DNA from: an uncultured Clostridia bacterium
Lineage (GTDB): Bacteria > Bacillota > Clostridia > Lachnospirales > Anaerotignaceae
Length of the DNA stretch: 64,000 nucleotides
NCBI GenBank assembly: GCA_945868505.1
Contig: CAMBLO010000010.1
Coordinates: 1 to 64,000 of the forward strand
Direction: 5' to 3'
Shown here: in pieces, positions 2,379 to 54,785 of the stretch
Numbering within the stretch: the stretch's first letter is position 1
Layout of the letters: the number at the start of each line of letters is the position of its first letter
The notes under the pieces: model-generated
Told to the model about the DNA's origin: nothing
Seen by the model: the letters and a program-made list of their open reading frames with translations, nothing else
Database searches by the model: none
Translations under genes and position numbers: made by a program

Positions 2379-4256
2379 ATGAGGATTTCGGAACTGTTGC
2401 AGAAAGAAAGTATCGCCATCGGGAAGAAGCTGCGGAACAAAAATACCGCCATTGACCAGTTGGTGGAGCTGTTAGCGAAAAGCGGCAATCTGAAGGATAA
2501 AGGCAAATTCAAACAGGCTATTTTGGAACGGGAAAAGCTTTCTACCACGGGTATTGGCGAGGGCATCGCCATTCCCCACGGGAAAAGCAACGCTGTGAAA
2601 CGGGCGGCACTGGCGGCTATGGTCGTGCCCGAAGGGGTGGATTTTGAAAGCGCCGACGGGCAGGATGCCCATTTGCTGTTTATGATTGCTGTGCCGGAAA
2701 ATGGCGCTGACCTGCATTTGGAGGTACTGGAACGGCTGGCGGCGATGCTGATGGACGAGGATTTTCGGAAAAAGCTGATAGAAGCGAAACATCCTTCTGC
2801 CTTTTTGGAGATTATTTCGGCGGAGGAAGAAAAACGCTTTGCCAAGGCTTCGGAGAAAGAAAAAATTGGCTATGATGTGCTTGCCGTAACCGCCTGTCCC
2901 ACAGGGATTGCCCATACCTTTATGGCGGCGGAAAGCTTGGAAAACAAGGCGAGAGAAATGGGCATCACCATTAAGGTGGAGACCAACGGCAGCGGCGGCG
3001 CGAAAAACGTGCTGACGGCGGAGGAAATCAAGGAGACTAAAGGCATCATCATTGCGGCAGATAAAAATGTGGAAATGGCAAGATTCCGCGGGAAAAAGGT
3101 GCTGCAGGTGCCTGTGACGGATGGCATCCGCAAGCCAGATGTCCTTTTGAGCAAAATCATACAAGGGGAAGCACCTTTTTACGGCGGCAGAACAGAGGCG
3201 GAAGCCTCTAGCGCAGGAGAAGAGAAAAGGGGCACAGGAAATAAGGTGTATCGTGATCTGATGAACGGGGTTTCCCACATGCTGCCTTTTGTCATCGGCG
3301 GGGGCATCCTGATTGCATTGGCTTTCCTGCTGGATGATTACAGCATCGACCCTGCCAATTTCGGTTCCAATCTGCCCCAAGCCGCCTTTTTCAAGACCAT
3401 TGGCGATGCTGCCTTTGGCTTTATGCTGCCCATTCTGGCGGGCTATATTGCCATGAGCATTGGGGACAGACCAGCCCTTGCGCCGGGCTTCGTGGGGGGC
3501 TTTCTGGCGAAGGAGGGTGGCAGCGGCTTTCTGGGGGCATTGCTGGCAGGCTTTGCGGCGGGCTATCTGATTCTGGGTCTACGAAAGCTTTTCGACAGAC
3601 TGCCCCGTTCCTTGGAGGGCATCAAGCCTATTTTGCTCTATCCTGTCCTTGGCATTTTCCTGATGGGGGCGTTGATTCAAGTTATCATCAATCCCCCTGT
3701 GGCATGGCTGAATGAAGCATTGTATGGACTGCTGTCACGGATGGGGACAAGCAGCCGTGTGCTTTTGGGTGTCGTTCTGGGGGGCATGATGAGTGTGGAT
3801 ATGGGCGGCCCCATCAACAAAGCGGCCTATGTATTCGGTACGGCTTCCTTAGCCAGTGATGAATTTCAGATTATGGCGGCAGTCATGGCAGGGGGGATGG
3901 TGCCTCCTCTGGCGCTGGCCTTGGCGGTGTTCTTTTTCCGCAATAAATTCAGCGAAAAGGAACGGCAATCCGGTGTGGCGAACCTCATTATGGGGGCCTG
4001 CTTCATCACGGAAGGGGCCATTCCCTTTGCGGCGGCAGACCCTCTGCGGGTACTGCCCGCTTGCATCATCGGCTCTGGGGTGGCCGGGGGTCTGAGTATG
4101 CTGTTCGGCTGTGCCCTGCGGGCACCCCATGGCGGGGTATTCGTCCTGCCTGTGATCAGCCATCCCTTTGGCTTTTTGGCGGCAGTGATTCTCGGTGCTG
4201 TGGTGGGGATGCTGCTTCTTGGACTTTTGAAAAAGAATCTGCCCCAGACCCTTTGA
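2379..4256 (+). CDS. fruA: Fructose-specific PTS transporter, EIIABC fusion
   Basis: 625-aa PTS permease that imports fructose and phosphorylates it at C1. Domain order is EIIA (about 1-150, phosphorylated His67 in IAIPHGKS), EIIB (about 165-265, phosphocysteine Cys173 in VTACPTGIAHTF) and EIIC (about 285-620, roughly nine membrane segments with a G-rich core). The ATG at 2379 is chosen over an upstream in-frame ATG (2352) because AAGGAGG lies at 2367-2373, five bases before it. It follows fruK in the same operon. No DeoR-type fructose regulator is adjacent, which is unusual for fruK-fruA operons. Confidence 0.94.
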   Translation: MRISELLQKESIAIGKKLRNKNTAIDQLVELLAKSGNLKDKGKFKQAILEREKLSTTGIGEGIAIPHGKSNAVKRAALAAMVVPEGVDFESADGQDAHLLFMIAVPENGADLHLEVLERLAAMLMDEDFRKKLIEAKHPSAFLEIISAEEEKRFAKASEKEKIGYDVLAVTACPTGIAHTFMAAESLENKAREMGITIKVETNGSGGAKNVLTAEEIKETKGIIIAADKNVEMARFRGKKVLQVPVTDGIRKPDVLLSKIIQGEAPFYGGRTEAEASSAGEEKRGTGNKVYRDLMNGVSHMLPFVIGGGILIALAFLLDDYSIDPANFGSNLPQAAFFKTIGDAAFGFMLPILAGYIAMSIGDRPALAPGFVGGFLAKEGGSGFLGALLAGFAAGYLILGLRKLFDRLPRSLEGIKPILLYPVLGIFLMGALIQVIINPPVAWLNEALYGLLSRMGTSSRVLLGVVLGGMMSVDMGGPINKAAYVFGTASLASDEFQIMAAVMAGGMVPPLALALAVFFFRNKFSEKERQSGVANLIMGACFITEGAIPFAAADPLRVLPACIIGSGVAGGLSMLFGCALRAPHGGVFVLPVISHPFGFLAAVILGAVVGMLLLGLLKKNLPQTL

Positions 4257-4279: not shown

Positions 4280-4308
4280 TTGCACCTTTTTGTCGAATCT
4301 CGTATACT
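4280..4308 (+). promoter_or_regulatory. Sigma-A promoter of lepB
   Basis: TTGCAC (4280-4285) and TATACT (4303-4308) are separated by exactly 17 bases. The predicted start is near 4315, giving a 5' leader of about 54 bases. Confidence 0.7.
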
Positions 4309-4368
4309 AATATGGAAAGAAAGACAGAAAATAACTTTCATTGAAAAAAAGAGCAAGGTTGGGATAAA

Positions 4369-4869
4369 GTGCAAGAATCATTACAAGAATGGGGAAAAGC
4401 GATCCTGCGGGCGGCGATCATCATTGTGGTACTGTTTTTTTTCTGTTGGCCCATGCGTTTGATGGGCAGTTCCATGGAGCCTACCATGGGGGACGGCGAA
4501 ATCGTGTTGATGAATCGATTGGCGGCACTGCGGGGGAATTATGAAAAGGGCGATATCGTCATGTTCCATTATTATGATGCCGATGGCAGCAAGACCGTGG
4601 TAAAACGCATTATCGCCACGGAAGGAGATACCATCCGTATTTTGGAGGATGGCGTGGAAGTGAACGGAGAGCTTTTGCAGGAGGACTATACGGAAGGTAT
4701 CACCGATGGCTTGGTCGATATGACGGTTCCCGAGGATACGGTGTTTGTTATGGGGGATAACCGCCAGAGCAGCTACGACAGCCGCAATATGGGCGTTATT
4801 TCCTGTGAGGACTTGAAGGGAAAGGTGTTTTTCCGCATCTATCCGTTCCATGAATTTGGCAAAATATAA
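4369..4869 (+). CDS. lepB: Signal peptidase I
   Basis: 166-aa type I signal peptidase that cleaves secretory signal peptides on the outer face of the membrane. One N-terminal membrane helix (about residues 11-30) is followed by the catalytic GSSMEPTM motif with Ser35, the general-base Lys in VVKRIIATEGD (near 76), and the C-terminal MGDNRQSSYDSR box. The length fits small Gram-positive enzymes. The GTG start at 4369 precedes MQESLQEW and leaves a short cytosolic N-terminus; a weak AAGGTTGGG site is upstream. It has its own promoter and terminator, so it is monocistronic. Confidence 0.95.
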   Translation: MQESLQEWGKAILRAAIIIVVLFFFCWPMRLMGSSMEPTMGDGEIVLMNRLAALRGNYEKGDIVMFHYYDADGSKTVVKRIIATEGDTIRILEDGVEVNGELLQEDYTEGITDGLVDMTVPEDTVFVMGDNRQSSYDSRNMGVISCEDLKGKVFFRIYPFHEFGKI

Positions 4870-6948: not shown

Positions 6949-7006
6949 TGCATAGAGACAAAGGGTGGATTTTTTAGGACATTCTTTTATGAATAGGAGG
7001 GTTTTT

Positions 7007-8566
7007 ATGCCGTTGACATTGGCGAAAGAAACGATGGATATGAATTGGAAGGATACAGGGGGGAAGCAGTCCTCTCAGATTTTGCTGGAGGGGGACATGA
7101 TTGTGCCCGACAGCAAGCCGGATTTGCAGGAAATCTTGCGCTGCGAAGGAAAGGTGAACATTCGGGAAAAGCGCATCACCGATGACCGCATTTCTTTTTC
7201 CGGGGATATGGAGGTTTCTGTCCTCTATCGGGCGAAAAACGGGGAGCGTCCCCTTTATGCCATGAAAGCCAGTCTGCCCTTGGAGGATTTTTTACATATC
7301 GACGGGCTGGAAAAGGACATGGATGTAACACTGGGGGCGGAATTGGAGCATTTGGACTGCCAAATCATCAATGACCGAAAAATCGGCGTGAAGGCAGTCA
7401 TTCAGATGCAGGCAGAGGCGGAGAAGCAGAAGCACGCGGAAATCCTCAGCGGCGTGGCAGGGGAAGGCATCGAATGCCTGAAAGGGATTTTGCGGATGGA
7501 GCGGGACACAGCTACCCTGAAAGACCGATTCACCGTGAAGGAGGACTTAAATCTTTCCCCCTCCAAGCCGGAGATTGCCGAGGTGCTTTGGGAAGGGATG
7601 GAACTGACGGAACAGGATATGCGGGCCATGGACGGCAAGGTCATGGTGCGGGGCAACCTGAAAATTTCCATGCTGTATTTGGACAGCGAAGGAAATATGG
7701 GCAGCTTCAACGAAAAAATTCCCTTCAATGGTTATTTGGAGGGGGAGGGCATCGAGCCGAAAACGGAGCTGAACGGCAGCTTGACCATTGAGGAAGGCAG
7801 GCTGACCCCCATGGCGGATGAGGACGGAGAGGCACGACAGGTGGCAGTAGACGTGACCATCGGGGCTCAGATGAACGGGAAAGAAACCGTGGAGCAGGAG
7901 ATTTTGCAGGATGCTTATGCGCCCAAGGGGACGGTCAATCTGGAAAAGGAAACCATCACCTACCCTGTGACCGTGGGCAGCGGCAAGAACCAGTTTATCG
8001 TGAAGGAGCGCATCCAACTGGAAAACGGCGAGATGCCTATGCTGCGGGCAGAGGAGGTCTGGGGAGAGGTGCGCCTTTCCGAAGCACGGACTGTGGTGGA
8101 TAACGTGGAAGTGGAAGGCGTCCTGACGGCGGATATCCTCTATGATTGCGAGGCGGATGAAGAACCTTTGTGTATGCTGCGGCGGGGGATTCCCTTTGGG
8201 CAGATGATGGAGCTGCGGGGCGTGGAAGAAGGGGACGAAGCCAATGTGTCCCTGCGGCTGGAGGATATTGATTTCCAGATGCTTTCCGAACGGGAAGGGG
8301 AGCTGCGGGCCACAGTGACCATGGAAACGATGGTGACGCGGCAGGAAACGGCGGAAACAGTGACGGATATCACCATGGAGGAGGAAATGGCTACCCAGCC
8401 TATGGCGGGGGCGGTCATCTATATGGTGCAGAGGGGGGACTCTCTCTGGAAAATTGCGAAACGGTACCGCACAACGGTCAATGATATTCTGGCGGTGAAT
8501 GATATTGAAAATCCTGATTTGATTTATCCGGGGCAGAAGTTATTGATTATTAAGATGGTGAGATGA
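7007..8566 (+). CDS. sipL: SipL-like spore morphogenesis protein (SPOCS/DUF3794 + LysM)
   Basis: 519-aa protein with repeated SPOCS (DUF3794) domains over about residues 15-455. The hallmark GDMIVPDSKPDLQEIL is near residue 28, and diverged repeats are near 180 and 330. A C-terminal LysM domain, YMVQRGDSLWKIAKRYR and following, spans about 473-518. In C. difficile the matching protein SipL binds SpoIVA and tethers the coat to the forespore. The ATG at 7007 follows AGGAGG by six bases; longer in-frame starts lack this site. It stands alone, and accessory module A begins just after its stop. Some Clostridia carry several SPOCS-LysM paralogs, so orthology to SipL is likely but not proven. Confidence 0.85.
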   Translation: MPLTLAKETMDMNWKDTGGKQSSQILLEGDMIVPDSKPDLQEILRCEGKVNIREKRITDDRISFSGDMEVSVLYRAKNGERPLYAMKASLPLEDFLHIDGLEKDMDVTLGAELEHLDCQIINDRKIGVKAVIQMQAEAEKQKHAEILSGVAGEGIECLKGILRMERDTATLKDRFTVKEDLNLSPSKPEIAEVLWEGMELTEQDMRAMDGKVMVRGNLKISMLYLDSEGNMGSFNEKIPFNGYLEGEGIEPKTELNGSLTIEEGRLTPMADEDGEARQVAVDVTIGAQMNGKETVEQEILQDAYAPKGTVNLEKETITYPVTVGSGKNQFIVKERIQLENGEMPMLRAEEVWGEVRLSEARTVVDNVEVEGVLTADILYDCEADEEPLCMLRRGIPFGQMMELRGVEEGDEANVSLRLEDIDFQMLSEREGELRATVTMETMVTRQETAETVTDITMEEEMATQPMAGAVIYMVQRGDSLWKIAKRYRTTVNDILAVNDIENPDLIYPGQKLLIIKMVR

Positions 8567-8577
8567 GAGTTTTGACT

Positions 8578-8640
8578 TGAAATTCAAGTTTTCGAAGGTT
8601 CAAGAAAACGAAGCTGGGCTCATTCGAGCCAAAGAGGAGG
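8578..8640 (-). repeat. R4 element, left end of accessory module A
   Basis: Read on the - strand this shows a GGCTC/GAGCC hairpin, then CAGCTTC, TTCTTG, TTCGAAAAC and TTGAATTTCAAG. The same order of blocks occurs at 9838-9925, 53765-53850 and 54705-54785. This is the most diverged copy. It points outward, opposite to the copy at the other end of the module. Confidence 0.55.
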
Positions 8641-8700
8641 TCGGGCAAACCTTCTGCCCGCCCGTTTGGAACTGTTTCGGCGAAACAGAACGGCTCATTC

Positions 8701-8855
8701 TTACTTTTTTTGAAAAAAAGTAACAAAAAACCCGGGAACCTTCCGTATGGTTCCCGGACCCTCTAACGGTCTAAGGGAAACGACGTTTCCCTTAGATATC
8801 CTTTCCCCACGAGCCCCTTCGGGCAGTATAAAGAGCCTTTCCGGCAAGGCTTGCT
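8701..8855 (-). ncRNA. R1 element: structured repeat or RNA with built-in terminator (copy A)
   Basis: An inverted relative of 54490-54645. Key stems, in + coordinates: a 12-bp arm TCTAAGGGAAAC (8770-8781) with GTTTCCCTTAGA (8785-8796) around a GAC triloop; CCGGGAACC (8732-8740) with GGTTCCCGG (8749-8757). On the - strand the second stem is followed by a T run, so it works as a terminator. In the other copy these arms read TCTAAGGGGAAC/GTTCCCCTTAGA and CCGAGAACC/GGTTCTCGG, so pairing is kept by compensatory changes. It lies downstream of the HTH genes on the same strand. No own promoter is clear. RNA or DNA hairpin function is undecided. Confidence 0.55.
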
Positions 8856-8890
8856 TTCGGAGATGAGAGGCAGGCAAAGGAGAAAACAAA

Positions 8891-8912
8891 AAAGGACGGA
8901 TTTCCGTCCTTT
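8891..8912 (-). terminator. Terminator of the two-gene HTH operon
   Basis: Stem AAGGACGGA with TCCGTCCTT, followed on the - strand by six T residues. It lies 16 bases past the stop of the 85-aa HTH gene and before R1. Confidence 0.8.
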
Positions 8913-8927
8913 ATTTGTGTTTGGTTC

Positions 8928-9185
8928 TTATGATAGTTTTTCCTCTGTTTCTTTCAATAATTCGTCGTAGGTGGTTTCCAGCACATTACGGATGCCTTGC
9001 AGTTGGGTGGCATAGATATGCTGGATGCCCCGCTCGATTTTGACAAGGGATTCTCTTGTTATATCAATGCCTTGCAGCTGAAGCAGGCGGACGAGTTCTG
9101 TCTGTCCGATGCCTTTTGCTTGGCGAATGGTACGAATATTTTGCCCGATGGGGATGGTTTTTGTCTGTTTGATTTTGGAATCCAT
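8928..9185 (-). CDS. XRE-family helix-turn-helix protein (85 aa)
   Basis: Small Cro/C1-type DNA-binding protein. The HTH spans about residues 12-75: IGQNIRTIRQAKGIGQTELV then an extended loop, ITRESLVKIERGIQHI, and a C-terminal ETTYDELLKETEE helix. There is no other domain. It starts one base after the stop of the upstream HTH gene on the same strand, so the two are translationally coupled and may act as a pair or heterodimer. With the neighbour, it forms the regulator side of accessory module A. The 18-bp palindrome at 9499-9516 is a candidate operator. Confidence 0.85.
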   Translation of the reverse strand: MDSKIKQTKTIPIGQNIRTIRQAKGIGQTELVRLLQLQGIDITRESLVKIERGIQHIYATQLQGIRNVLETTYDELLKETEEKLS

Positions 9186-9186
9186 A

Positions 9187-9429
9187 TTACTTGATTTCCT
9201 GTTCTAAGCTATTAAATTCGGGGGTATCAAAAAATTCTGCCAATGTCATATCCAGACCGTCACAAATCATTTTAATAGTCAAAATTTTTGGATTATTACT
9301 TTTCCCATAAAGGATATTTTTTAAAGATGTAGGGGGAATGGCAGAAATTGTTGCCAGTTTATTGATTGTTAAATTACGTTCCTCGCAAAGTTGAAGAATA
9401 CGAATTCTAATAGTTGAAATAGTATCCAT
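9187..9429 (-). CDS. XRE-family helix-turn-helix protein (80 aa)
   Basis: 80-aa Cro/C1-type repressor-like protein. The HTH is at about residues 6-65, with KLATISAIPPTSLKNILYGK as the turn and recognition helix and a C-terminal GLDMTLAEFFDTPEFNSLEQ segment typical of small stand-alone XRE proteins. It is the first gene of a two-gene operon with the 85-aa HTH protein and is divergent from the 81-aa gene at 9551. The 120-base intergenic region holds a sigma-A promoter and two inverted repeats, consistent with control of both directions. Confidence 0.86.
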   Translation of the reverse strand: MDTISTIRIRILQLCEERNLTINKLATISAIPPTSLKNILYGKSNNPKILTIKMICDGLDMTLAEFFDTPEFNSLEQEIK

Positions 9430-9468
9430 TTTAAGCCCTCCATTCTTCTTTCAGAATACCCAGAATAG

Positions 9469-9516
9469 TTGGACAAAATCGTCCATCTATGCTACTATTA
9501 GGCTATGCATAGCCTA
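9469..9516 (+). promoter_or_regulatory. Promoter with two overlapping operators for the 81-aa gene
   Basis: TTGGAC (9469-9474), 18 bases, TACTAT (9493-9498) forms a sigma-A promoter. A perfect 18-bp palindrome TAGGCTATGCATAGCCTA (9499-9516) covers the expected transcription start. A second inverted repeat, TGGAC and GTCCA six bases apart (9470-9485), covers the -35 box. Both positions suit repression, most simply by one of the divergent HTH proteins. Confidence 0.65.
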
Positions 9517-9550
9517 TTTTGGATTTGGGGGTAAAGGAGAGATTATTAGA

Positions 9551-9796
9551 ATGAAGCTATTTCAGGATATTTTGAAGGGAATTTTAATGGAAGAAGAAGT
9601 GCAGGTGGTTTTTCCAAATTTAAAGATGTCCCCCAGTGAGCTTGTGGAAATGAAATGCTACATGGCATTGCGGGACATCAAAAAAATTTTGGAGGATGAT
9701 ACATTGGAGGACAAGGAATGTTTTGCAAAAATTGAAGAAATTGTGCATATTTTCGAAGTGATGGGAAGCGATTGCGGAACAAGACACGAATTTTGA
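9551..9796 (+). CDS. Conserved 81-aa acidic protein of accessory module A
   Basis: Unknown function. The 81-aa product is predicted all-helical and acidic, with the block EMKCYMALRDIKKILEDDTL at about residues 33-52, ECFAKIEEIV at 56-65, and an RHEF C-terminus. It is 38/81 identical, without gaps, to the 82-aa protein at 53867-54115. The ATG follows AAAGGAGAG. It is divergent from two HTH genes across a palindromic operator, and a terminator plus an R4 repeat follow. There is no signal peptide or membrane segment. The steady pairing with DNA-binding proteins suggests a small regulatory or toxin-antitoxin-like module, which is inference. Confidence 0.75.
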   Translation: MKLFQDILKGILMEEEVQVVFPNLKMSPSELVEMKCYMALRDIKKILEDDTLEDKECFAKIEEIVHIFEVMGSDCGTRHEF

Positions 9797-9806
9797 GCGG
9801 AATAAG

Positions 9807-9837
9807 AACACTGGTGTTTGCCGGTGTTTCTTTTTTT
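9807..9837 (+). terminator. Terminator of the 81-aa gene
   Basis: Stem AACACTGG (9807-9814) with CCGGTGTT (9821-9828), one wobble, then a T run. Confidence 0.7.
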
Positions 9838-9925
9838 AGGAGCGTTGCGCCGCTTTTTGCCCGCATGGGCGCGGCTTCAAATTCTTGGAGTTTCGAGAAC
9901 TTGAATTTAGAGCCGTTTTCTTCCC
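9838..9925 (+). repeat. R4 element, right end of accessory module A
   Basis: Contains GCCGC, a TGCCCGCATGGGCG hairpin, GGCTTC, ATTCTTGGAG and the block TTTCGAGAACTTGAATTTAG. The same ordered blocks occur at both ends of module B and, more weakly, at 8578-8640. It points outward from the module and ends eight bases before the -35 box of the tmk operon. Confidence 0.65.
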
Positions 9926-9932
9926 TTTTCCT

Positions 9933-9961
9933 TTGATTCTGCCCATTGTATGTGCTATAAT
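9933..9961 (+). promoter_or_regulatory. Sigma-A promoter of the tmk operon
   Basis: TTGATT (9933-9938) and TATAAT (9956-9961) with a 17-base spacer. It drives tmk and probably the genes through trmN6. Confidence 0.75.
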
Positions 9962-10046
9962 ATACAATTAGCAAGAGTGTACCCATTTCTCAGCGCACTT
10001 TTGCCAAAGGTGAAGTTTCGGATATTTTTTAACAGAGGTGGGCCCC

Positions 10047-10673
10047 ATGAAAGGCTATTTTATTTCCGTGGAAGGCGGCGATGGCAGCGGCAAATCCACA
10101 CAGATCAAAAAAATAGAAGCATATTTGCAGTCGAAGGGGCAGGAAGTCCTTCTGACCAGAGAACCCGGTGGCACGCCTGTGGCGGAAAAAATCAGGGAAC
10201 TGATCCTTGACCCTGCCAATAAAGCATTGACGGGTAGAGCGGAAATGCTGCTTTACGCCGCATCCCGTGCCCAGCATGTGGAGGAAAAAATACTCCCCGC
10301 TTTGGCAGCAGGCAAAACGGTGCTTTCCGACCGTTTCACCGATTCCAGTATCGCCTATCAGGCCTTCGGCAGAGGCTTGGGGGATATGGTGGCAGAGGTG
10401 AACCGCATTGCCACCGGCGGCAAAGAACCGGACCTGACCATTTTTCTGAACATTACTCCTGCGGCGGGGATGGCGCGGAAAAACAATCAGGACGGGCATA
10501 CCTTAGACCGTTTGGAGCAGGAAAAGGCAGCCTTCCATGAAAAGGTATATGAAGGCTATCTGACCTTGGCGAAGGAAAGCGGCGGCAGAATTGCTGATAT
10601 CGATGCGGACAGACCCGCCGAAGCGGTTTTTGCCGACATCAAAAAACAGTTAGACAGAGTATTCGGTTTTTGA
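10047..10673 (+). CDS. tmk: Thymidylate kinase
   Basis: 208-aa kinase that phosphorylates dTMP to dTDP with ATP. The P-loop GGDGSGKST is at residues 10-18, and the DR(F/Y) motif (DRFTDSSIAYQ) near 92 binds the nucleotide. A LID region follows near 145. The ATG at 10047 is preferred to GTG 10038, which lies inside the AGAGGTG ribosome binding site. It is first in a conserved replication/signalling operon, tmk-darA-holB-ricT-trmN6, as in Bacillus. Confidence 0.96.
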   Translation: MKGYFISVEGGDGSGKSTQIKKIEAYLQSKGQEVLLTREPGGTPVAEKIRELILDPANKALTGRAEMLLYAASRAQHVEEKILPALAAGKTVLSDRFTDSSIAYQAFGRGLGDMVAEVNRIATGGKEPDLTIFLNITPAAGMARKNNQDGHTLDRLEQEKAAFHEKVYEGYLTLAKESGGRIADIDADRPAEAVFADIKKQLDRVFGF

Positions 10674-53410: not shown

Positions 53411-53690
53411 AAAAACCGTCCTTCTTTTGAAAGGACGGGCATTTTGCCGTGTTACCACCTTACTTCGTTTTTCCCTCGCGGAAAAAACCTCTGTGGGTAG
53501 ATACCCGAAAGGATAACTACCGCAACGCGATAACGGGCGAACCCGTCGCAGCCTAATGCCTGCCGATGCAGACACTCGGGGCGAAGCTCCAAGGCCATCT
53601 TCGGTGATTCTTCTGCGCCCCTTTTCAGCCGCCGGGGCTCTCTGTCAGCAGAAGGAGGTCACTTACTCTCCTTTTCAAAGCTGTTTGTCC
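53411..53690 (-). promoter_or_regulatory. T-box leader of metG (methionine specifier)
   Basis: The - strand has the T-box sequence AAGGTGGTAACACGG (53461-53447) and a terminator, ACCGTCCTTCTTTTG-region stem with CCGTCC/GGACGG (53438-53411) plus T run. The stem I specifier context is GAAG-ATG-GCC, with the AUG codon at 53598-53596, matching methionine. Uncharged tRNA-Met should stabilise the antiterminator and turn on metG-tatD. Confidence 0.9.
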
Positions 53691-53764: not shown

Positions 53765-53850
53765 AGGTTTTCGTCCCTAAATTCAAATTCTCGATTTCCA
53801 AGAGAATGAAGCTGCGCCATTTGGCGAAAACGGCGGCGGTGTGCCTAAAA
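53765..53850 (-). repeat. R4 element, left end of accessory module B
   Basis: Read on the - strand: CCGCCGTTTTCGCC, ATGGCG, CAGCTTCATTCTCTTGG, ATCGAGAATTTGAATTTAGG. It aligns block for block with 9838-9925 and 54705-54785 and contains an ATTCTC/GAGAAT hairpin. It points outward from the module. Confidence 0.65.
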
Positions 53851-53866
53851 AGGAGATGCTTTTTGT

Positions 53867-54115
53867 TTATCCAAAATCATGTCTTTCATTTATACTACTT
53901 CCCAGCTTTTCAAAAACAGAGATTATTTTTTCGATACGTTCAAAGCAATCGCTGTCATTTAAAGATTCATCTTCCAAGATTTTTTTGATTTCATTTAATG
54001 CCTGATAACATTTTAGCTCCATCATTTCCTCAACGTTCATTTTCCATTTAGGCAGTAAAATCTCAAATTCATCAGATTCCAATATTCTGCACAACATATC
54101 ACGGTACAGTTCCAT
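53867..54115 (-). CDS. Conserved 82-aa acidic protein of accessory module B
   Basis: Paralog of the 81-aa protein at 9551-9796: 38 of 81 aligned residues are identical with no gaps, including KCY at 35-37, IKKILED at 43-49, CF at 57-58 and RH-x-F at the end. Predicted all-helical, acidic and cytosolic, with two conserved Cys. Unknown function. It is divergent from a ribbon-helix-helix gene across an AT-rich near-perfect palindrome, while its relative in module A is divergent from HTH genes. An R4 element lies directly downstream. Confidence 0.75.
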   Translation of the reverse strand: MELYRDMLCRILESDEFEILLPKWKMNVEEMMELKCYQALNEIKKILEDESLNDSDCFERIEKIISVFEKLGSSINERHDFG

Positions 54116-54144
54116 TTTTCATCACTCCAAACTAAAAACATGTT

Positions 54145-54167
54145 ATATGTTATAAAATATAACATAT
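54145..54167. promoter_or_regulatory. Inverted repeat between the 82-aa and RHH genes
   Basis: Perfect 10-bp arms ATATGTTATA (54145-54154) and TATAACATAT (54158-54167), 3-base spacer, in the centre of a 99-base divergent intergenic region. It is a likely operator of the RHH protein. Confidence 0.65.
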
Positions 54168-54214
54168 ATTATAGCTGATTTGCAATCATAAACTATGTGC
54201 AAGGAGGCGATTTC

Positions 54215-54424
54215 GTGAAAAGTGAAAAACTGATTGTAAAGCCCAAAAAGCCCAAGGGCGAAGATGGACATAAAGTCTTTTCTATCCGTGTGAAAGATGA
54301 AATCGTAGCACAGTTGGAAGAGATTTGCGCAAGAACGGGACACAGCAGAAATGAATTGATTGGCATGCTTTTGGAGTATGCTTTGGAAAATTGCGAAGTT
54401 GAAGAGACAAATGAAGAAGAATAA
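54215..54424 (+). CDS. Ribbon-helix-helix DNA-binding protein (69 aa)
   Basis: 69-aa Arc/MetJ-type protein. A basic N-terminus (KSEKLIVKPKKPKGEDG) precedes the strand VFSIRVKDEIVAQLEEICA and the helix RTGHSRNELIGMLLEYALEN; the tail is acidic. The GTG at 54215 follows AAGGAGG by seven bases; an upstream GTG at 54197 lies before that site. It is the regulator of accessory module B, divergent from the 82-aa gene. The HTH genes occupy this slot in module A. Confidence 0.82.
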   Translation: MKSEKLIVKPKKPKGEDGHKVFSIRVKDEIVAQLEEICARTGHSRNELIGMLLEYALENCEVEETNEEE

Positions 54425-54436
54425 TTTTTAAAAGAT

Positions 54437-54467
54437 AACAGCCTCGAGTGATTCGGTGGCTGTTTTG
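54437..54467 (+). terminator. Terminator of the RHH gene
   Basis: Stem AACAGCC (54437-54443) with GGCTGTT (54458-54464), then TTTGATTT. Confidence 0.6.
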
Positions 54468-54489
54468 ATTTACAGCTATTTCGATAGAC

Positions 54490-54645
54490 CAGCAAGCTAT
54501 GCCGGAAAGGCACTTTATACTGCCCGAAGGGGCTTGTGGGGAAGGGATATCTAAGGGGAACGTTGTTCCCCTTAGACCGTTAGAGAGTCCGAGAACCATA
54601 CGGAAGGTTCTCGGGTTTTTTGCAACTTTTTTTCAAAAAAAGTTG
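54490..54645 (+). ncRNA. R1 element: structured repeat or RNA with built-in terminator (copy B)
   Basis: Matches complement 8701-8855. Stems: TCTAAGGGGAAC (54550-54561) with GTTCCCCTTAGA (54565-54576) around GTT; CCGAGAACC (54589-54597) with GGTTCTCGG (54606-54614) followed by a T run, a full intrinsic terminator. A GCCCGAAGGGGC hairpin is near 54522. Compared with copy A, several stem positions changed on both sides together. It follows the RHH gene on the same strand, as copy A follows the HTH genes. Confidence 0.55.
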
Positions 54646-54704
54646 GGGAAAGGCTGTTGTTTTGCCAAGAAACTTCTGGGGGTGGGCGAGTGCTGATATT
54701 CGCC

Positions 54705-54785
54705 GACCGCCGTTTTCGCCCGGCTGGGCGCAAATACATATTCTTGAGTTTTCGAGAACTTGAATTTCAAGCGCAACCCCTCCCT
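54705..54785 (+). repeat. R4 element, right end of accessory module B
   Basis: Contains CCGCCGTTTTCGCC, a CGCCC/GGGCG hairpin, ATATTCTTGAG and the block TTTTCGAGAACTTGAATTTC. It shares 15-20 base blocks with the copies at 9838-9925 and complement 53765-53850. It points outward. The 418-base gap from 54425 to 54842 holds only R1, R4 and terminators. Confidence 0.65.

Follow-up and report, generated by a model that had tools for sequence, protein, structure and literature searches.

Cassette-like modules with hairpin-rich ends and exchangeable small regulators in the genus Anaerotignum

Results

Two modules built on one plan

The stretch of DNA analyzed here, referred to as the window (64,000 nucleotides; G000:C10:1-64000), comes from a 2.53-Mb genome of the genus Anaerotignum assembled in 69 contigs, and carries two small gene modules, A (8576-9912) and B (53767-54775), delimited by sequence reading and by alignment of their ends. 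A first-pass annotation had proposed that both follow the same plan, and such a plan was borne out once the inverted repeats, structured elements, genes and palindromes had been located: an outward-facing repeat (R4), a structured element (R1) at one end, one or more genes for DNA-binding proteins, a palindrome, a divergent gene for a protein of 81 or 82 amino acids, and a second R4, again facing outward.

Module A opens with its left R4 (8576-8640, + strand), which comprises the outer tip and the hairpin GGGCTCATTCGAGCC, faces outward, and was recognized from the end alignment and as an inverted repeat with 9855-9908. As the first-pass annotation had suspected, this is a weak copy; the two R4 arms (8580-8633 and 9855-9908) are 76% complementary over the 54 nt of their inverted repeat. 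R1 (8641-8870, + strand), defined by alignment and pair counting, holds the hairpins H1 (8701-8723), H2 and H3 (8770-8796), followed by inner hairpins of a kind called here type i. Read from the inside of the module outward, H2 (GGTTCCCGGGTTTTTTG in A) consists of a G+C hairpin followed by T6, and thus reads as an intrinsic terminator. A further terminator-like hairpin (8888-8915, inverted repeat I4) lies 3' of an operon of two XRE regulator genes on the minus strand. The first of these (8928-9185, 85 aa, type XA1) gives weak matches to HTH_19 and HTH_3 and has a 121.6-bit relative adjoining an 81-aa gene in genome G004; the second (9187-9429, 80 aa, type XA2) matches Pfam HTH_26 (E 5.6e-9), and DNA 83% identical to it occupies the same site, between sipL and tmk, in genome G002. 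On the plus strand, a predicted promoter of the 81-aa gene (9470-9498, TGGACA-17-TACTAT), with a modest 9 of 12 consensus matches, is followed by a perfect 18-bp palindrome, TAGGCTATGCATAGCCTA (9499-9516), that appears operator-like from its sequence and from comparison of operators, and by the 81-aa gene itself (9551-9796), an open reading frame whose product belongs to an unnamed family and for which AlphaFold2 predicts three helices. The right end (9835-9912, minus strand), read from the repeat alignment, is an outward-facing R4 with a remnant of a type-ii inner hairpin, and appears internally deleted.

In module B the order is reversed, with an apparently internally deleted left end (53767-53858, + strand), again R4 plus a type-ii inner remnant by repeat alignment, adjoining the 82-aa gene (53867-54115, minus strand), which its open reading frame and protein comparison place in the same family as the 81-aa gene of A. 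Repeat and promoter scans identified an operator-like palindrome, TATATGTTATAAAATATAACATATA (54144-54168), overlapping the predicted -10 of this gene. The regulator of B (54215-54424, + strand) is a ribbon-helix-helix (RHH) protein (Pfam RHH_1, E 2.4e-6), whose start is a GTG after AAGGAGG, the listed open reading frame beginning at 54197. A full R1 of type i (54485-54700, minus strand; alignment and pair counting) and an outward-facing right R4 (54700-54775, minus strand; repeat alignment) complete the module. The R4 arms of B (53779-53836 and 54707-54767) agree at 73.8% over 61 nt with an exact core of 14 nt, and R1+R4 of A matches R1+R4 of B at 78% identity across 286 nt. Identity between the small proteins is 47%, which is the 38 of 81 positions counted originally, and the regulators do belong to different folds, an XRE pair with an HTH_26 match in A and RHH_1 in B. 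Directly adjoining module B is a T-box leader (53428-53687; Rfam RF00230, 100.4 bits) upstream of metS.

Structure and copies of the ends

An alignment of 22 ends, taken from this genome and from others of the genus, revealed one order from the outside to the inside: tip, R4 hairpin core, the hairpins H1 to H3, and a set of inner hairpins. Tips are of two types, GCTTGAAATTCAAGTTCTCGAAA or GGTTTTATCTGAAG..CGGCTTCGGAAGTTCTCGAAA; the R4 core occurs in the compensatory variants GCGCCCAGTCGGGCG, GGGCTCATTCGAGCC and GCGCCATTTGGCG; H1 is TTACTTTTT..AAAAAGTAAC; and the inner set is of type i or type ii, most cassettes read having one of each. Modules A and B each have one complete R4+R1 end of about 290 nt, and at the other end R4 is joined directly to the innermost R1 hairpin. 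Because the R4-only ends keep the innermost hairpin of a full end, they look like internal deletions, and in the past each module probably had a full end on either side.

Compensatory changes keep the R1 hairpins. Pair counting found standard pairs in 97.2% of the H1-H3 cells of this multi-copy, hairpin-rich, non-coding repeat, and 41 double-change cells in R1, compared with 12.2 in shuffled controls and no more than 4 in slid ones. Only 2 of 387 H1-H3 cells are G.U pairs, a scarcity that could point to pairing being selected in DNA and not in RNA. When R1 and R4 were compared to Rfam, no family was reached at gathering score and a relaxed threshold gave chance-level matches only, which speaks against a described RNA. 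Open reading frames that cross R1 (e.g. MPERHFILPEG...) were judged spurious, as type-ii ends lack them and the changes in R1 track hairpin pairing. At some cassettes, R1 is replaced by a second structured end element, GTTCGAGYTGCCCCCTTCCCTCGG...CTGCGCAGGGGCAG (L096 2165-2280, L098 2740-2850, L068 4550-4690, L036 3420-3520), some copies of which are preceded by AGTTACTGCA repeats. Elsewhere in the order, other families have numerous cargo-free intergenic copies of related H1-CAAAAA-H2 hairpins, both tandem and inverted (L083, L084 and L085 in G046, and loci of G048).

In this genome, R4/R1 ends are found at seven places, namely six cassettes and one solo end (C33), and since they recur at seven loci and R1 hairpins covary, the likeness of the A and B ends is more than chance. 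Besides A (XRE pair and 81-aa protein) and B (RHH and 82-aa protein), the cassettes are C11, between the genes for dihydrofolate reductase (dfr) and aldo-keto reductase (AKR), with an XRE and a 66-aa Cys-rich protein (MNCENKFCIYYENHACILE); C24, with an XRE and a relative of that protein (MSIKSCENLFCIYWEENKCIL); C61, at argS, with a 79-aa protein (MNEMHQKLRVLEK) alone; and C2, with an RHH and a relative of the 79-aa protein (MEEIKQQLYELQNL). Cassette interiors hold small regulators and small proteins only, and the small partners of all six have no confident Pfam or PHROG family and, where tested, no PADLOC family. A covariance model of R1 found about 17 strong sites across nine Anaerotignum species and few elsewhere in the family. 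At 15 of the 16 evaluable genus sites, R1 is adjoined by a gene for a small regulator or a small effector or partner, and pairs of ends can also enclose a single gene, as for the 79-aa gene of G000:C61 and a 77-aa gene of G001:C25. At one site, beside an M20 peptidase gene, the 77-aa partner gene is nearly identical in G004 and G001, and the RHH regulators differ; at this site in G001, R1 ends enclose the 77-aa gene alone (L234 1392-2089; L235 532-1377).

The same chromosomal sites in other species

Comparison of corresponding sites revealed that cassettes differ between species in orientation, content and presence. Between dfr and AKR, a 732-bp cassette is inverted in G000 relative to G002 with 85% identity, and the flanks have the same orientation on both sides (91% and 88% identity). 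Inversion of a 1185-bp cassette (83.6% identity) is seen at the C24 site, where the right flank is conserved; the left neighbors differ, so a larger rearrangement was involved there. At argS, the outer flanks agree and the G000 ends align with the G002 ends at 90%, in inverted order, with breakpoints at or near the R4 core, and the cargo is a 79-aa gene in G000, a divergent XRE-XRE in G002, and one XRE in G006. Assembly flips are an unlikely source of these inversions, as exact matches between the left and the right end of any one cassette extend over 10-39 nt at most. From the between-species comparison, we infer that the ends act as recombination substrates.

Between sipL and tmk, where G000 has cassette A, G002 has an ortholog of the second XRE regulator plus an RHH and a divergent XRE, and G007 has an RHH and an XRE; the cargo of these two genomes adjoins another structured element (GTTCGAGTTGCCCCCTTCCCTCGG...CTGCGCAGGGGCAG). 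In G008, the left and right R4 are fused into a palindrome without cargo that has one hairpin in common, and in G003 and G006 the site is empty. The sipL-like gene is co-directional with tmk in G000, G002, G007, G003 and G006, and inverted in G008, G004 and G001; in G008, the fused cargo-free R4-R4 lies at the junction (window 6965-10673; L097, L101, L102).

Between metS and the aminopeptidase gene, where module B resides in G000, the site is empty in G008, and G002 has an 85-aa gene and RHH pair devoid of R4 and R1, which means that the gene pair can do without the ends. This G002 pair (L069 3626-4353) sits between two copies of a flank sequence of about 55 nt (TGTCAATGGATACAGRGGAAAAAG...), and a barstar-like fragment comes next. 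In G004, an A-type XRE and an 81-aa gene lie upstream of metS in the opposite orientation, the latter with an internal TAG (L079 4187-4375) and thus seemingly broken. The empty sipL/tmk sites that the first-pass annotation had proposed looking for do therefore exist, along with the empty metS/aminopeptidase site; modules are not fixed in place without empty sites, nor are R4 copies mostly found without modules.

The 81-aa protein family and its regulators

The cargo of the Anaerotignum cassettes includes an unnamed and widespread small-protein family, present at no fewer than 80 Clostridia loci, mostly in gut species, and without matches in IMG/VR, phages or plasmids. Searches with the 81-aa protein of Pfam, NCBIfam, PHROGs, PADLOC, PDB sequences, and PDB and viral structures through Foldseek returned nothing. 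The AlphaFold2 model (mean pLDDT 85.7) has helices at residues 2-14, 28-48 and 54-70, and its predicted fold has no PDB or viral counterpart in Foldseek. M1, C57, F58, I61, E62, I64 and H79 are invariant in the family, and R78, D80 and F81 nearly so.

A divergent gene for a small DNA-binding protein lies just upstream of the 81-aa gene in 70 of the 73 loci examined. These regulators are of at least five types: classic XRE (31 of the 70 loci), HTH_26-type XRE (22), RHH type 1 (8), A-type XREs (5) and RHH type 2 (2), two loci being mixed. When mapped onto a tree of 67 proteins, weakly resolved with its 82 columns, regulator type changes about 25 times, the least possible being 5; one such change falls inside an Anaerotignum trio, winB/L136 (RHH2) and L177 (XRE), that has support of 100/99. 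Comparison of the intergenic regions revealed that the operator tracks the regulator and not the species: all 22 HTH_26-type (X2) loci have one operator, ATTATGGGGGTTATAAT...AAGGGGATATAATCCCC, with small variations, XRE loci have one of a few palindrome pairs (e.g. TAACGGAAATACCGTTATTGACTTTTAACGGTATTTCCGTTA), and RHH type 1 loci have TAAAGTAGTATAAAGTAGTATA-like direct repeats. Judging from these comparisons, regulator and operator are replaced together. A promoter with at least 10 of 12 consensus bases precedes the gene at 47 of 73 loci, against 3.8 expected, and the operator commonly overlies the promoter spacer or the -10. The regulators would be repressors of the small-protein promoter.

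Strong flanking inverted repeats are missing at 53 of 54 distant loci of the family, which rules out R4-type repeats as its general companion. R4 pairs do recur around varied small gene sets within the genus, but not around the distant 81-aa loci. Since the pair is widespread without R4, and free of R4 and R1 at the G002 metS site, regulator swapping, originally put forward as a feature of the repeat-bounded unit, belongs to the gene pair itself; the regulators are indeed exchangeable, and the R4/R1 ends are so a genus-level layer on top of that pair. In Candidatus Merdivicinus (L178), the one exception among the 54 distant loci, an 81-aa/XRE module is found between hairpin-rich inverted repeats (3269-3426 and 4294-4453; 160 nt, 86% identity) unrelated to R4/R1, an independent instance of the same architecture.

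Marks of mobility

Repeats of 0-5 nt were found at eight boundary pairs, no more than in mismatched pairs, in agreement with the earlier remark that target-site duplications were not established. GTTTT flanks module A on both sides, and was discarded as a duplication because mismatched boundary pairs show it too. No transposase or recombinase is attached to the cassettes, and the 17 tyrosine-recombinase matches of the genome are all on contigs other than that of the window. No copy of an R4/R1 cassette was found in phage, plasmid or viral-contig collections, which speaks against a phage or plasmid origin, and no IS or autonomous relative with the same ends was found in the genus (nine species), the family, phages, plasmids or viral contigs. 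Of the original description as a small mobile or cassette-like unit, the second term is supported, as R4/R1 ends surround different gene sets; the first, mobility, we infer.

Discussion

The reading that we favor, and to which we give about an even chance of being correct, is that of two nested layers, with a repressor-gated two-gene switch inside a non-autonomous, hairpin-ended cassette whose ends recombine. The cargo would be a switch in which a small three-helix protein is expressed from a sigma-A-type promoter under an operator read by a divergent small repressor, and in which repressor and operator may be swapped as one block for unrelated repressor/operator blocks. Such block replacement suggests that what is conserved is the control of the small protein by a repressor rather than the identity of the repressor. 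The small protein might act only when the repressor lets go, possibly as an effector that modulates growth or resembles an anti-repressor. The cassette, R4-R1 ... R1-R4, would house this and similar switches in Anaerotignum, with the outward-reading R1 terminators possibly insulating the neighbors from cassette transcription. A crossover between the inverted ends of one cassette would flip it, and one with cassettes elsewhere or with incoming DNA would replace its cargo or leave a fused R4-R4 palindrome behind. Homologous recombination would be the default agent of these events, and a transposase provided in trans the simplest idea for the first spread of the ends.

It could be argued, alternatively, that R4 and R1 are nothing more than extragenic hairpin repeats, terminators of the BOX or REP kind that come to lie at gene 3' ends, and that the gene pairs were never moved by them. 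As a divergent pair ends in a 3' end on both sides, two such repeats would face outward and mimic terminal inverted repeats; R1 does carry an outward terminator, the H1/H2 arrays of distant genomes such as G046 have no cargo, and the G002 pair at metS does without either element. We consider this account unlikely, however, because R1 is almost confined to small-regulator loci (the 15 of 16 evaluable genus sites), because end pairs also enclose one gene only, in G000:C61 and G001:C25, because ends invert along with their cargo, and because a gene-free fused R4-R4 remnant exists.

Equally doubtful to us is that these units are mobile insertion cassettes proper, that is, IS derivatives with passenger genes in place of the transposase, moved in trans by that IS. 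The absence of target-site duplications above null at the eight boundary pairs, the lack of an autonomous relative with the same ends in the genus and family as well as in phages, plasmids and viral contigs, and the variation of tip type all speak against it, even though terminal inverted repeats, passengers, several copies, empty sites and the missing transposase would be expected of such elements.

It is quite unlikely that the loci form a dedicated exchange system for regulatory switches, in which the hairpin cores are recombinase sites at which an enzyme inverts, excises and swaps two-gene switches among fixed chromosomal stations, with the 81-aa family being a new class of repressor-gated effector with an interchangeable repressor. 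A site-specific recombinase acting at the R4 core (GCGCCCAGTCGGGCG / GGGCTCATTCGAGCC) as XerCD acts at the pdif sites of dif modules, with both inversion and excision permitted by the palindrome of the core, seems very unlikely, given that no enzyme is linked to the cassettes, that the core sequence itself varies, and that homologous recombination across the ends would give the same breakpoints as those at or near the R4 core in argS, in spite of the joining of left and right R4 at one hairpin in G008 and of the compensatory changes that keep the core.

If the two-layer reading holds, these loci would represent a clear natural case of a small protein whose need for repression persists while repressor and operator are exchanged as a unit among no fewer than five DNA-binding types. 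They would also define a family of chromosomal cassettes whose switches invert and exchange positions. With 80 Clostridia loci, the 81-aa family has neither a name nor a fold match, and its nearly ubiquitous divergent repressor, often with a consensus promoter, makes the protein a candidate effector or toxin that lends itself to direct testing. The R4/R1 ends, in turn, could be used to test how hairpin-bounded cassettes are exchanged in gut Firmicutes.

Comparison with known systems

The gene pair resembles phage CI/Cro switches and type II toxin-antitoxin loci in its small size, palindromic operator and XRE or RHH repressor. Unlike those of type II toxin-antitoxin loci, however, its genes are divergent (70 of 73 loci) and not in one operon, and the 81-aa partner differs from the components of both systems in having no toxin or phage family match and in being absent from phage and viral collections.

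Mobile insertion cassettes such as MIC231 of Bacillus cereus and mic-qnrD have inverted repeats and passengers and no transposase, usually with target duplications and a parent IS (PMC3913671). The Anaerotignum cassettes share with them the inverted terminal repeats, the passenger genes, the lack of a transposase gene and the presence at multiple loci, but their ends, unlike the short ends of an IS, are about 300 nt long and hold several covarying hairpins, they contain two genes under a divergent regulator, they show inversion and cargo exchange at fixed sites, and neither a target-site duplication nor a parent IS was found for them. With no such duplication found, we do not class them as mobile insertion cassettes, though they may work alike.

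The dif modules of Acinetobacter plasmids (pdif/XerCD) also invert and shuffle small units, often toxin-antitoxin pairs, and have Xer sites as borders (PMC13141974). Small units with inverted borders are inverted and shuffled here as well, in our case between species only; the cassettes, however, are chromosomal, have no link to XerCD and no plasmid match, and the R4 core GCGCCCAGTCGGGCG, judged by eye, shows no recognizable 28-bp Xer site and no dif-like 11-6-11 AT-rich pattern.

In Streptococcus pneumoniae, BOX, RUP and SPRITE are structured interspersed repeats of a narrow group that move at a low rate and may span open reading frames (PMC3049150), and the R4/R1 ends are likewise structured, multi-copy and confined to a narrow group, R1 having the hairpin-rich, conserved secondary structure of a MITE or BOX-like repeat. 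For the Correia repeat enclosed elements of Neisseria, inversion is reported in work cited in PMC10969869. Our cassettes resemble the latter as short inverted-repeat units able to invert in place. Correia elements measure about 100-150 bp and are devoid of genes, whereas the Anaerotignum cassettes carry them. BOX and Correia elements come closest among structured repeats, but to our knowledge neither brackets conserved gene pairs; in Anaerotignum, by contrast with BOX, RUP and SPRITE, structured elements lie in inverted order on the two sides of conserved gene pairs.
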